From Robertkochia solimangrovi (lineage in GTDB: Bacteria; Bacteroidota; Bacteroidia; Flavobacteriales; Flavobacteriaceae), in assembly GCF_007279655.1 (NCBI RefSeq), contig NZ_QKWN01000001.1, forward strand, positions 124,001 through 188,000: a stretch of DNA of 64,000 bases, read 5' to 3'. Below the pieces are notes generated by a model. That model did no database searches, was not told the origin of the DNA, and was given only the letters and a program-made list of their open reading frames with translations. Each line of letters starts with the position of its first letter. Within the stretch, counting starts at the first letter, position 1. Below are positions 59,603 to 63,452 of the stretch, piece by piece. The position numbers and the translations under genes were made by a program.

Positions 59603-60568
59603 TTACTCTTTAATTTTCGGATTAAAAATATGATCTACCCATTGTTTGCCCCAATCCGACTTTTCACGATCAGTCCAAAATTCAGGAAAAAAGATGATTT
59701 TCTGAAAATTTGGAGGTAAATATTGTCGCCAATTTGTTCCACCGGTAGCATCGATCGCTTTTTCTCCTTTGCTAAGGTGGCGATATGCCGCCCCCATATG
59801 CATGAGATTCCAGTTAACATTCGCGTTCACATCTAAAGCTCGCATAGCCTCGATAAGTCTGGGGTTTTCTCTGGCCTCCCGGGGTAGTGCCAGATATTTA
59901 TCATATAAGGTCATCCCCTTAACCGCGTGCGCAATTCGCATAAAGCGAGGGGTATATCTATATTCGAATTGTTTCAGGGTGAGCGTTTTCTCTCCTGTCG
60001 CTGTATCAACGGCACCTTTCTTCCAATATATATTCTCATAGAGTTCTTCTAATGAACTCGAGCTATCAAATTTACCAACTACCGTATTATGCACCAAATT
60101 GATCAGTGGCGTCGCATAGATCTCTATCATTCTGAATTGAGCAGACTGAAACCCACTGGCCGGAAGTAGCGACATCCTGTATTGCAGGAATTGTTCACGA
60201 TCCATTCCGTTGATCATAATATCAAAGGAAGAAATCAGTGCTTTATAGTAATTATTGATCCGATTGATCCGCTGTACATAAAAATCAACCTGTTGCAACT
60301 TATCATCAATGATCTGTTTTTGTTCATGGATGATCAGTTTAAAATATAATTCTGTGATCTGGTGATACATAATGAAGATCTCTTCATCCGGAAAATGTGT
60401 CCTTGGAACCTGCAGACTCAAAAGCGTATCCAAATGGATGTAGTCCCAATAGGTCAGGTATCGTTCGTGCAGTAATCCATCGAGATAAGAACCGAGGTCC
60501 TGACCCGAATTTTTGTATTTCTCTTCAAGTTTTGCAATGCGCTCTTCAATCTCCGCTCTAATCGCCAT
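59603..60568 (-). CDS. kynA: tryptophan 2,3-dioxygenase family protein
   Basis: A 321-residue heme protein of the tryptophan 2,3-dioxygenase family, which opens the indole ring to give N-formylkynurenine. Motifs in order: LTYWDYIHLDTLLSLQ (about 38-53), IMYHQITELYFKLIIHE (66-82), LPASGFQSAQFRMIE (135-149), the heme His at about 257 in NLMHMGAAYRHL, and DATGGTNWRQYL near the end. The ATG overlaps the DUF3108 stop by one base, and its stop abuts the M23 ATG. No other kynurenine gene is near, so the purpose of this operon grouping is unclear. Confidence 0.92.
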   Translation of the reverse strand: MAIRAEIEERIAKLEEKYKNSGQDLGSYLDGLLHERYLTYWDYIHLDTLLSLQVPRTHFPDEEIFIMYHQITELYFKLIIHEQKQIIDDKLQQVDFYVQRINRINNYYKALISSFDIMINGMDREQFLQYRMSLLPASGFQSAQFRMIEIYATPLINLVHNTVVGKFDSSSSLEELYENIYWKKGAVDTATGEKTLTLKQFEYRYTPRFMRIAHAVKGMTLYDKYLALPREARENPRLIEAMRALDVNANVNWNLMHMGAAYRHLSKGEKAIDATGGTNWRQYLPPNFQKIIFFPEFWTDREKSDWGKQWVDHIFNPKIKE

Positions 60569-61359
60569 TAATCAACTTTAATTTTAAATTGATGTTTCAA
60601 TCCTTTAAATGCCTCCAGGTCTGCCTTCAGAGACCCGATCATCAAGTCTGCTTTAATTCGAATCGGCACTTTATTCTTATCATCTGAAACCCAAAGTGTT
60701 AAGCTTTCCTCTTCTTTAAAGACCCTCCCAGATTGTACATAAGGCCGAAATTTAAGACAATTTACATTACCAAACTTGGTATTTACCTCTTCTCTTCCCA
60801 GGAATTTAAGTTTAAATCGAAATGGTTTATCATCATCATACAACAAATCCAATATAATTTCCTCTCCCACCTTGAGATCTTCTGCCTGATAATTCTCTCT
60901 AAGAAAATAAAAAGCCGATAACAGATCCTGAATTTCATTATTGGTTTCTATTGTCTTGGTAGTTCCGTGCTTATGATTGGTCACCACCGCCTCGTTATCC
61001 TGATGATTGAAATTTATTTCAAGATCCTTGGTATACCCTCCTTCATCGATCTGTCTGATAAACCGGTAGGGCTTTCCATCCTGTTTATCAAAATAACTCT
61101 CATAATTATCGTCTACCGCAAAAAACCAACGGGCAAGTCCGGTGGTCTTGCCTTTCCCCACCACATGATATACCGATTTTCCTTTTAGCATTTCATCTTT
61201 TAACTCCAGAGTTGCATAGCTGGCGTTGAACACTCCGTAATGTATTCGAAACTGAAACCATTCACCACCCTGAAAAGAAGAATTAAACACAGGTTCTTCG
61301 TTCTGATAAGCAAAACTGGTCAGTAAAAATATTAGTATGACAGGGATAATTTTTCTCAT
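60568..61359 (-). CDS. DUF3108 periplasmic protein
   Basis: A 263-residue exported protein (signal MRKIIPVILIFLLTSFAYQ). The mature part fits DUF3108: GGEWFQFRIHYGVFNASYATLEL, VYHVVGKGKTTGLARWFFAVDDNYESYFDK, and ESLTLWVSDDKNKVPIRIKADLMIGSLKADL near the end. This beta-barrel-like fold is related to lipid- or sugar-carrier proteins, but the job is unknown. I start at the ATG at 61359; an upstream start would add 13 residues before the signal. It is first in the operon and overlaps kynA by one base. Confidence 0.85.
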   Translation of the reverse strand: MRKIIPVILIFLLTSFAYQNEEPVFNSSFQGGEWFQFRIHYGVFNASYATLELKDEMLKGKSVYHVVGKGKTTGLARWFFAVDDNYESYFDKQDGKPYRFIRQIDEGGYTKDLEINFNHQDNEAVVTNHKHGTTKTIETNNEIQDLLSAFYFLRENYQAEDLKVGEEIILDLLYDDDKPFRFKLKFLGREEVNTKFGNVNCLKFRPYVQSGRVFKEEESLTLWVSDDKNKVPIRIKADLMIGSLKADLEAFKGLKHQFKIKVD

Positions 61360-61610
61360 GTTCTGAATATGGCGTAAAAATAATAAAATCAGAAACATTT
61401 ACTGTTCAAACGCAGCAAAATCAAAATATTGTCAATACAGAATTTTTAACACACCCTAAAAGTATAAATCCTTCAGAATTAATTTATTCCGCATCGCATC
61501 ATTTACTTACAAATTCGAATCCAGCAAATGCCCCGGCATATTTAACTGCAACAGCCATGCCATTAATAAGACGACCAAAAAGTATCCTTGTTACAACGGT
61601 AATATCCAAT

Positions 61611-61696
61611 ATTACAGTAAACAGTGAAGCAGTAAGGCAGTAAGGCAGTAAGCAGTAGGCTGTAAACCGTAAGCTGTTTTCCGTTTCCCGTTTTCT
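61611..61696. repeat. degenerate 7-8 bp tandem repeats, array A
   Basis: About eleven degenerate copies of a 7-8 base unit GCAGTAAG that drift to GCTGTAA, ACCGTAA and then CCGTTTT. The stretch has no spacer structure, so it is not a CRISPR. The region between DUF3108 and array A (61360-61610) holds no gene I can support. Confidence 0.7.
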
Positions 61697-61765
61697 AATT
61701 AAGGAAACAAATATCAAAATCGAAAGTTTAAAATGTCACAGGCGAATTCAAATTAATTAATCCTT

Positions 61766-61830
61766 AACCCTGTTACCTGTTACGTTGTGACGTTGTTACT
61801 TGTAACCATTTAACGTGTCACCTTGTAACA
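61766..61830. repeat. degenerate 7-8 bp tandem repeats, array B
   Basis: About eight degenerate units built on CTGTTAC / GTTGTGAC / CTTGTAAC. It is of a different motif from array A, about 70 bases away. Similar drifting repeats are common in intergenic stretches of Bacteroidota as far as I recall, often near 23S-intervening-type four-helix-bundle genes, but no such gene is visible here. Confidence 0.65.
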
Positions 61831-61885
61831 TAAATAGCAGAAAACGCAACACACATTACCATAAGTGATTACGAAGCGTATTAAA

Positions 61886-61990
61886 AGAAAAAAGCCCGGC
61901 GCGAAGCCGGGCTTTTCCATTAACCAACCAAAAACTTTAAATTATGAAAACTTTACTTAAAGTCAGCAAAAGGGCACCACCCACTTTTGC
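61886..61990 (-). ncRNA. candidate small RNA of about 105 nt
   Basis: A full transcription unit without a gene. A perfect -7 box lies at 61996-62003 (minus strand TATATTTG), a start is expected near 61990, and a strong terminator follows at 61890-61916. The predicted RNA begins with a hairpin: its first 7 bases pair with bases 61965-61971 around a G-rich loop, and four more pairs are possible upstream of that. A second weak pairing joins ACTTTAA and TTAAAGT in the AU-rich middle. No ORF of note lies on this strand. It is not 6S, tmRNA, SRP RNA or RNase P RNA as far as I can judge. It lies about 120 bases downstream of hppD, and an alternative is a long 3' tail of that mRNA. Confidence 0.6.
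61890..61916 (-). terminator. terminator of the small-RNA candidate
   Basis: An 11-bp GC-rich perfect stem (61890-61900 with 61906-61916) and GCGAA loop, followed on the minus strand by a T run with one C. It could also end read-through from hppD, whose stop is 197 bases upstream. Confidence 0.88.
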
Positions 61991-61995
61991 GACTG

Positions 61996-62003
61996 CAAAT
62001 ATA
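61996..62003 (-). promoter_or_regulatory. -7 box of the small-RNA candidate
   Basis: Read on the minus strand this is TATATTTG followed by CAG, identical to the rplU and HU boxes. The bases at the TTTG position are GGAC, so the upstream element is missing. Confidence 0.55.
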
Positions 62004-62112
62004 CGTCGAGTTCCGAGTTTTGTCCTCGCGTTATTATAAGTTTAACTTTTTTAACAACCAGAATGCAACGGGTTGAAAAAAACAGTGTGTTTTTGGCAAC
62101 AATTCGGTCATT

Positions 62113-63252
62113 TTATAGCGTTCCACGCATTTCCTGTTCCCTTTCAATCGCCTCAAAAAGGGCTTTAAAGTTTCCTTTACCAAAGGATTTTGCACCTTTT
62201 CTTTGAATTATTTCAAAGAACATAGTCGGCCTGTCGAGAACTGGCTTTGTAAATAGCTGTAATAAATAGCCTTCATCATCCCGATCGATCAAGATTCCCA
62301 ATTCCTTAAGCGGCTCCAGATCTTCGTCTATTTCACCTACACGATCCAGAACTGTATCATAATAGGTCTCGGGAACATAGAGAAATTCCACACCTCTTGA
62401 CTTAAGCGCTTTGACTGTTTCAATAATATTATCGGTAGCAACTGCAATATGCTGGACACCGGCTCCATTATAGAAATCGATATATTCTTCGATCTGAGAT
62501 TTTTTCCTCCCTTCAGCAGGCTCGTTGATCGGAAATTTGATCCTTCCGTTTCCATTGCTCATCACTTTACTCATCAAGGCTGTGTAATCGGTGGAAATAT
62601 CCTTATCGTCAAAGGAAACCAATTGGGCAAATCCCATAACTTTCGCATAGAATTGACACCATTTATTCATCTCATTCCAACCAACATTACCCACCATATG
62701 ATCGATATACTTAAGTCCGACCGGAGCAGGCTTAAATTCCGGATTCCATGCTTTAAAACCAGGCATAAACGCTCCGGAATAATTCTTTCTTTCCACGAAG
62801 ATATGTACGGTTTCTCCATAGGTATGAATCCCTGACAAAACAACCTCCCCTTGGTCATCAGAAATAGTCTTCGGCTCCATATAGGGCTCTGCTCCACGCT
62901 TAACGGTTTCTTCAAAACTTTGAGTTGCATCATCGACCCAAAGGGCAACCACTTTCACCCCATCTCCATGTTTTTCAATATGCGCATTCACATCGCCTCC
63001 CTTTTGCAAAGGAGAAGTCAGCACTAACCTGATCTTATCCTGCTGAAGTACATAGGAGACCCGGTCTTTCATTCCTGTTTCCAAACCCGAATAGGCAACC
63101 GGTTGAAAACCCCACGCGGTTTGGTAATAATGGGCCGCCTGCTTGGCATTCCCAACATATAATTCAACGTAATCTGTTCCCAGCAATGGCAGAAAATCCG
63201 CTGCTGACTCAACTGTTTTATCAAGGTTTAAAGATGATGTATCTGTAGTCAT
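62113..63252 (-). CDS. hppD: 4-hydroxyphenylpyruvate dioxygenase
   Basis: HPPD (379 residues) converts 4-hydroxyphenylpyruvate to homogentisate in tyrosine breakdown. Two vicinal-oxygen-chelate domains are present (about 25-160 and 175-365). The iron ligands are in YIDHMVGNV (H185), GVQHIAVAT (H268) and MFFEIIQRKG (E347). I start at the ATG at 63252; a TTG three codons earlier is unlikely. It is 200 bases after hmgA in the same direction. No terminator directly follows; the nearest is at 61890-61916. Confidence 0.96.
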   Translation of the reverse strand: MTTDTSSLNLDKTVESAADFLPLLGTDYVELYVGNAKQAAHYYQTAWGFQPVAYSGLETGMKDRVSYVLQQDKIRLVLTSPLQKGGDVNAHIEKHGDGVKVVALWVDDATQSFEETVKRGAEPYMEPKTISDDQGEVVLSGIHTYGETVHIFVERKNYSGAFMPGFKAWNPEFKPAPVGLKYIDHMVGNVGWNEMNKWCQFYAKVMGFAQLVSFDDKDISTDYTALMSKVMSNGNGRIKFPINEPAEGRKKSQIEEYIDFYNGAGVQHIAVATDNIIETVKALKSRGVEFLYVPETYYDTVLDRVGEIDEDLEPLKELGILIDRDDEGYLLQLFTKPVLDRPTMFFEIIQRKGAKSFGKGNFKALFEAIEREQEMRGTL

Positions 63253-63452
63253 AATATTCAATTTTTATCATATCCCGCATCCTGTTAAAGCAATGATCTG
63301 ACCACTAGGAACAGCGAAGATATGATCGTTTTTTTAATAGCAATTTAGTAATACTCCCAATAAATTCAAGCTCGCTTAGCTGCCTGACTCAATGAAATTA
63401 CCTCACCACATCGCTCTGAGATGAGCCGTTATGTCTACTCTGTAATTAAGCA

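Follow-up and report, generated by a model that had tools for sequence, protein, structure and literature searches.

What does the minus strand encode between hppD and a DUF3108 gene of Robertkochia solimangrovi, and on what might its product act? The locus lies in a window of 64,000 nucleotides, the whole stretch of DNA that was analysed. A sequence-only reading had placed a small RNA (sRNA) here, with a -7 promoter box, a 5' hairpin where transcription is predicted to begin, and a terminator, and all three were found (Table 1). We read the locus as most plausibly an autonomous sRNA gene, from a family that Rfam lacks; that it is a real sRNA gene of a conserved family is, from the sequence evidence below, nearly certain. 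Computation supports that the gene exists, that it is structured and conserved, and that its core statistically prefers the start regions of SusC genes. As to function, we consider it probable that the product is an autonomous, terminator-ended, trans-acting sRNA of ~105 nt, the core of which would pair with SusC-type starts, block ribosome entry and lower the synthesis of glycan importers.

Table 1. Features of the sRNA locus and its neighbours (window coordinates)
Feature	Position	Strand	Basis
Upstream neighbour hppD (glyoxalase / HPPD domains)	62113..63261	-	Pfam
Tandem GTTAAA boxes GTTAAAAAAGTTAAA / GTTAAAAAAGTTAAAC, putative activator site	62041..62055 / 62040..62055	-	conservation in upstream regions
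-7 promoter box TATATTTG	61996..62003	-	sequence reading; TAnnTTT[G/A] in 133/134 homologous rows
5' hairpin SL1, loop GUGGUG	61966..61990	-	predicted fold; two-sided stem changes in relatives
Hairpin SL2, UUUUCAU in loop	61933..61964	-	predicted fold
Invariant core UUCAUAAUUUAAAGUUUUUGGUUGGUUA, proposed anti-start-codon pairing region	61921..61948	-	mostly invariant columns; SusC pairing statistics
Single-stranded part UUUGGUUGGUUAAU	61919..61932	-	GGUUGGUUA unpaired in most homologue folds
Intrinsic terminator SL3	61888..61918	-	fold, terminator scan and covariation
Downstream neighbour DUF3108 protein, conserved synteny	60568..61398	-	Pfam PF11306

Structure, conservation and distribution of the RNA

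In the predicted fold the minus-strand RNA consists of the 5' hairpin, a second hairpin, a short unpaired stretch and the terminator, and the energy of the whole RNA (-38.1 kcal/mol, z -3.83) was equalled by none of 200 dinucleotide shuffles. A terminator scan of 61400-62200 returned a single site, on the minus strand at 61918-61888 with a 13-pair stem, where 0.7 were expected. The unpaired AU-rich middle described earlier proves to be mostly the second hairpin, which the family keeps; what stands of that description is a conserved unpaired part at about the single-stranded segment of Table 1. Among 124 distinct homologues, GGUUGGUUA is entirely unpaired in the best fold of 82, and just three of the seven bases of UUCAUAA are unpaired in the best fold of 94.

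Inspection showed no conserved reading frame. That the conserved stretch is, on the plus strand, a small gene or its beginning (ATGAAAAC... at 61944) is hardly credible: the plus strand does resemble a Bacteroidota start region, but the frame from 61944 runs for 5-8 codons in the four listed relatives of the window's own type (type A, see below), the T-tract of the terminator is on the minus strand, and the stems covary. Judged by sequence, the locus has its own promoter, an intrinsic terminator and no coding potential.

Relatives were collected in several ways. A pattern scan of named genomes gave at least 120 stretches, 80 of them listed, and the genera named among the matches listed (Arenibacter, Maribacter, Zobellia, Kordia, Galbibacter, Capnocytophaga, Robiginitalea and others) are ones that we take to be Flavobacteriaceae. 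BLAST against 99 genomes, including that of R. solimangrovi, found matches in 26, part of them gene starts instead of RNAs; ten of 14 weak BLAST matches inspected were gene starts, and none was entered as target evidence. From 139 rows retrieved by pattern, in which some genomes appear twice (e.g. L002 and L041), we dropped five at locus edges, a repeat of the window RNA (L151) and one row without the box (L075). Merging of identical RNAs left the 124 distinct ones, and 48 diverse RNAs among these made up the alignment and the covariance model. One of 17 aligned rows, L016, was unconvincing as a type A member and was kept out of the model.

Two-sided changes were found in 14 of the 33 base pairs of the 48-RNA alignment, and no shuffle of 500 reached any of five measures. 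Compensatory changes had been proposed as a check on the gene, and they are present in SL1 and in the terminator (8 of its 14 pairs) and missing from SL2; 94.4% of the SL2 cells in this alignment are paired with zero pairs changed on both sides, so that SL2 pairing stands without proof by covariation. The SL1 loop GUGGU is invariant in all 48 RNAs. Conservation in sister species, a further check, is borne out by a comparison of five Robertkochia loci, with 94-98% identity over the first two thirds of the RNA. By segment, identity is 0.94 in SL1, 0.98 in SL2 plus the single strand and 0.78 in the terminator. For the flanks of the same five loci the values are 0.77-0.81 (end of hppD), 0.39-0.57 (intergenic sequence upstream) and 0.32-0.53 (downstream).

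The covariance model matches 163 of 299 family genomes and 135 of 236 genera (E<=1e-3), with one match in the R. solimangrovi genome and a maximum of four among the 163 matched genomes. In a sample of the phylum it matches 28 of 296 genomes, 22 of them in Flavobacteriaceae and the other six weakly (E 2.4e-5 to 7.4e-4). Many of the weaker matches (below ~58 bits) are divergent yet recognisable and others among these belong to a second type (type B, see below); those inspected in genus g152 retain the GUGGUU loop together with UUUCAUAAUUUAUAG or a near variant, and most of them UUUUGGUUAGUUA too. Duplicates of the sRNA, tandem or dispersed, were observed at G324:C10:110765-111213, in G027 (three copies) and at L035 and L064 (two each).

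At gathering score Rfam matched nothing in the window, and tmRNA, SRP RNA, 6S, RNase P RNA and Flavo-1 are absent from the 35 matches found at E up to 10 in 61300-62300. The sequence-only reading could not match the RNA to the first four either. Its suggestion of an RNA of the kind of Flavo-1, a flavobacterial candidate RNA that we take to be RF01705, found no backing at either threshold; the alternative that it offered, a new family, fits the lack of an Rfam match. The best Rfam match, the rnk_pseudo leader RF01772, is full-length yet scores 35.0 bits, the gathering score being 55; RF01772 is a Pseudomonas cis-leader, and the score probably comes mainly from the terminator. Within 20 related loci, Rfam recognised nothing besides two DUF805b RNA elements (RF02914) at L035 6302-6336 and 7036-7068, outside the sRNA and near the tandem Kordia copies. 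No description of this sRNA was found in the open-licence literature searched, and the available portion of PMC5069720 is silent on it.

Promoter region and gene neighbourhood

Of 134 homologous rows, 133 have a TAnnTTT[G/A] box before the RNA, with G as its last base in 104 and A in 29 (raw count). The upstream TTTG element is absent, as had been conceded when the sRNA was proposed, and GTTAA is conserved there instead. It occurs in 126 of 126 distinct upstream regions against 20.35 expected from single-base shuffles, and as a pair 9-11 bases apart in 107 of the 126 against 0.2 expected from such shuffles; the spacing is exactly 10 in 100 of these 107 regions and 9 in the window. The double GTTAAA box combined with TAnnTTTG is found once in the whole genome of R. 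solimangrovi, at the sRNA locus, and the tandem boxes may be the binding site of an activator.

The end of hppD lies on the same strand, 110 bases upstream of the -7 box, and this speaks for an RNA that is the mere 3' tail of the hppD mRNA, perhaps processed, an origin already weighed when the sRNA was proposed. It is very improbable given that the gene directly upstream varies (hppD in 69 of 138 rows, a gene for a patatin-type protein in 47) and that the promoter boxes are present throughout.

In most loci the sRNA stands between hppD or the patatin-type protein and a DUF3108-TDO-M23 cluster. The gene directly downstream is DUF3108 in 114 of 138 rows, its frame at a median of 155 bases from the core, in counts for which many rows are cut by the locus end and cluster names come from reading of the proteins, with Pfam for the window genes; loci with DUF3108 downstream are among L001-L015, L027 and L031-L150. 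TDO lies ~1 kb downstream in about five other rows, where DUF3108 was therefore perhaps missed by the script. This synteny would be expected of a 5' leader or transcription attenuator of the DUF3108-TDO operon, the terminator setting read-through from the TAnnTTTG start, but such a role is improbable on three counts. A separate sigma-54-like element lies between the terminator and DUF3108 in 97 of the 114 loci. In the window the DUF3108 start is 589 bases from the core. The intact RNA is also found beside truly different downstream genes, in Capnocytophaga (L082), Kordia (the tandem copies of L035, and L068), G027 (L008 and L027) and L006, and these copies keep the same RNA and core; the RNA is therefore no mere leader and is independent of DUF3108. 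A cis-leader would always lie upstream of the gene it regulates with no promoter in between, and the RNA of these loci does not.

The element downstream of the terminator, TTTGGAA[TC]A..TTGT (97 of 114 is a raw count), is presumably sigma-54-like and lies ~80 bases before the DUF3108 start in most loci shown. The window is without this form and perhaps has, by eye, a TGGCAT..TTGC-like site at 61546-61563 on the minus strand. Compared with R. marina (L041), window positions 61400-61880 hold ~450 extra bases between the core and the DUF3108 start (589 vs 135), and short repeats (GCAGTAAG, GTTAC-like) occur at ~61600-61835.

Pairing of the core with SusC start regions

Read as its reverse complement, the invariant core UUCAUAAUUUAAAGUUU..GGUUGGUUA gives UAACCAACC..AAACUUUAAAUUAUGAA, the pattern of a start-codon region, and the mRNAs of flavobacteria are without Shine-Dalgarno sequences (PMC6847099). 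Core duplexes in the R. solimangrovi genome reach -16.26 kcal/mol for 30 SusC genes vs -13.08 kcal/mol for 233 other exported genes (p 8e-6), in a comparison that uses the best-scoring 30 of 57 TIGR04056 matches (about 49 genes over the cut-off), genes within retrieved loci, start codons chosen by script under the same rule for both classes, and energies of pairing alone, ignoring RNA fold and accessibility. This difference was matched by none of 100 shuffled cores and by one of 100 decoys, the latter being reverse complements of real start regions from other exported genes. The unpaired part alone also prefers SusC in this genome (p 0.003; one of 100 shuffles as extreme). In 24-25 of the 30 SusC genes the predicted duplexes extend across -18 to +6, and in 17 they include position -24.

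The same preference was obtained in G036, for 8 full-length SusC genes over 101 others (p 0.0018), and in G027, for 10 of about 22 SusC genes, two with near-identical leaders, over 96 others (p 1.3e-4); no shuffle and no decoy, of 60 each, was as extreme in either genome. The SL1 loop, taken as a contrast, showed no preference for SusC, with 24 of 60 shuffles as extreme. By predicted pairing, a conserved region of the RNA is thus complementary to mRNA start regions, with a SusC preference in three genera, and the trans-acting role first suggested from the hairpin and its neighbouring sequence gains support from these statistics. That the sRNA acts on SusC-type start regions appears reasonably likely.

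The preference is one for a class of genes. Among 382 genes with a leader, start regions were not clearly better targets than shuffles: shuffles were as good in 23 of 40 trials for the single strand, 10 of 40 for SL2, 3 of 40 for the core and 0 of 40 for the SL1 loop, which despite this last figure binds upstream regions at least equally well. Pairing with DUF3108 starts is not special (mean -12.29 for 40 of the 114 vs -12.98 for other genes).

Support from individual candidate targets, as predicted from sequence, is thin. Over a sample of 575 start regions of R. solimangrovi, the best predicted target is a GH97 gene (-23.6), ranks two to six are not recognisable as PUL genes, and rank seven is a SusC gene (-21.6). 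TAACCAACC was rejected as a general start-region motif of this genome, 12 of its 55 sites having a nearby ATG that opens an ORF of at least 60 aa. By eye, about five of the 55 sites in the whole genome look like true gene starts (L183, GH20; L212, GH97; L225, an exported protein without Pfam match; L211; L230), and two of these are glycan enzymes, GH20 and GH97. The 18-base complement of the core, allowing up to three mismatches, has 52 matches vs 37 for the reversed control. In G170, AACCAACCAAA precedes the starts of two genes ~2.6 kb apart, one for a TonB-plug (SusC-type) protein and one for a rhamnogalacturonan lyase; the RNA of that genome reads GGUUAGUUA, so its pairing with AACCAACCAAA there would have one mismatch.

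In the mechanism that we propose, transcription from the TAnnTTTG promoter would be under the control of an activator bound to the tandem GTTAAA boxes. The invariant core would pair with about -18 to +6 of the mRNAs of SusC-type TonB-dependent transporters, and perhaps likewise with some PUL enzyme mRNAs; pairing would block ribosome entry, and less glycan importer would be made. Marine Flavobacteriaceae rank among the main degraders of algal polysaccharides. A family-wide sRNA acting on SusC start codons would, if real, place their glycan uptake under post-transcriptional control, as FopS does in gut Bacteroides, and would do so through an RNA family without detected relation to FopS, one for which a covariance model and a testable class of targets exist.

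According to PMC11697453, the FopS sRNAs of B. thetaiotaomicron pair close to the start codon of mRNAs for SusC-like importers and so repress them; GibS of the same species contacts two metabolic mRNAs at their start regions (PMC7366714). The likeness to FopS lies in a trans-encoded RNA and start-codon pairing with susC-like mRNAs, predicted for the window RNA. FopS forms a paralogous family of 14 copies (12-15 per genome) and consists of a single-stranded 5' seed and a terminator, whereas the flavobacterial RNA is mostly single-copy and combines a covarying hairpin at its 5' end with a 3' core. The best reading is that the flavobacterial RNA would resemble FopS in its mode of action without being FopS. 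FopS and GibS, sought by name only, are absent from the 35 Rfam matches at E up to 10, the presence of a FopS model in the library being unconfirmed. The Rfp1-89 RNAs are expressed in F. psychrophilum; one of them, Rfp18, is conserved and has an effect on metalloproteases (PMC9723704). These are likewise conserved flavobacterial sRNAs with a strong predicted fold and, in Rfp18, predicted mRNA targets; by description, Rfp18 differs in its reported targets, metalloprotease mRNAs, and in the place of its pairing region, a third stem-loop (PMC9723704).

The 3' module in other transcripts

Of 199 family genomes, 157 contain the complement pattern AACCAACCAAA..ATGA, and its reversed control matches many of them too; 30 loci with the pattern were classed as sRNA or 3' end (16), mRNA start (8) or neither (6). 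The module UCAUA-N-UUGGUUGGUUAGU is present in 70 of the 199 genomes, with one match for the reversed control. At 30 of its loci, a script assigned a terminator to 22, inspection by eye added a hairpin at 6 more (two of these with a poor T-tract), and 2 were mRNA starts.

Type B RNAs, a sister type with the 3' core of the window RNA, combine a GUGGUU (or GUAGUU) loop with ACUUUAA or a near variant of it, UUCAUA and UUUGGUUGGUUAGU. A -24/-12 sigma-54 promoter lies 82-84 bases upstream of the core in 10 of 10 type B regions, as selected by script, and in 0 of 128 type A regions. The type B loci are L358, L361, L364, L365, L384, L402, L404, L412, L419 and L432. In a third group, type C (L385-L393), UCAUAA..UUUGGUUGGUUAGU appears by eye to start at the stop codon of an arginine/serine-rich frame; the module is then followed by a terminator-like hairpin and looks like an mRNA 3' UTR or a 3'-UTR-derived sRNA.

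A module that ends several types of transcript, including the apparent mRNA 3' UTR of type C, could also mark a protein-binding RNA (a sponge, or one loaded on a chaperone), in which the 3' module UUGGUUGGUUA and the terminator would form the site of a Bacteroidota RNA-binding protein and no seed would exist. We regard this as unlikely: it leaves unexplained both the conserved UUCAU at start-codon spacing and the SusC preference in three genera, and GGTTGG was rejected as a general 3'-end motif, with counts of 2 vs 1 upstream of 157 predicted terminators in ~0.86 Mb of the R. solimangrovi genome.

Returning to start-codon pairing, we hold it possible, as a tentative extension, that the Flavobacteriaceae have an sRNA superfamily in which one interchangeable 3' module (UUCAUA...UUUGGUUGGUUA plus terminator) is joined to varied promoters, TAnnTTTG with GTTAAA boxes in type A and sigma-54 in type B, and even to mRNA 3' UTRs, so that different signals would converge on SusC-type translation without Shine-Dalgarno sequences. 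A 3' core common to sigma-54 and primary-sigma promoters would offer a clear example of modular evolution among sRNAs.

In the genome of R. solimangrovi, 6 of 55 GGTTGGTTA sites scored as followed by a terminator (one of them, L185, inside a gene), as did 7 of 55 in the opposite orientation, and the count therefore proves nothing by itself. Apart from the window RNA, GGTTGGTTA is followed by a terminator at L182, L196, L203 and L207. At L182 a TATCTTTG box lies ~118 bases upstream, and this locus may be a second sRNA.
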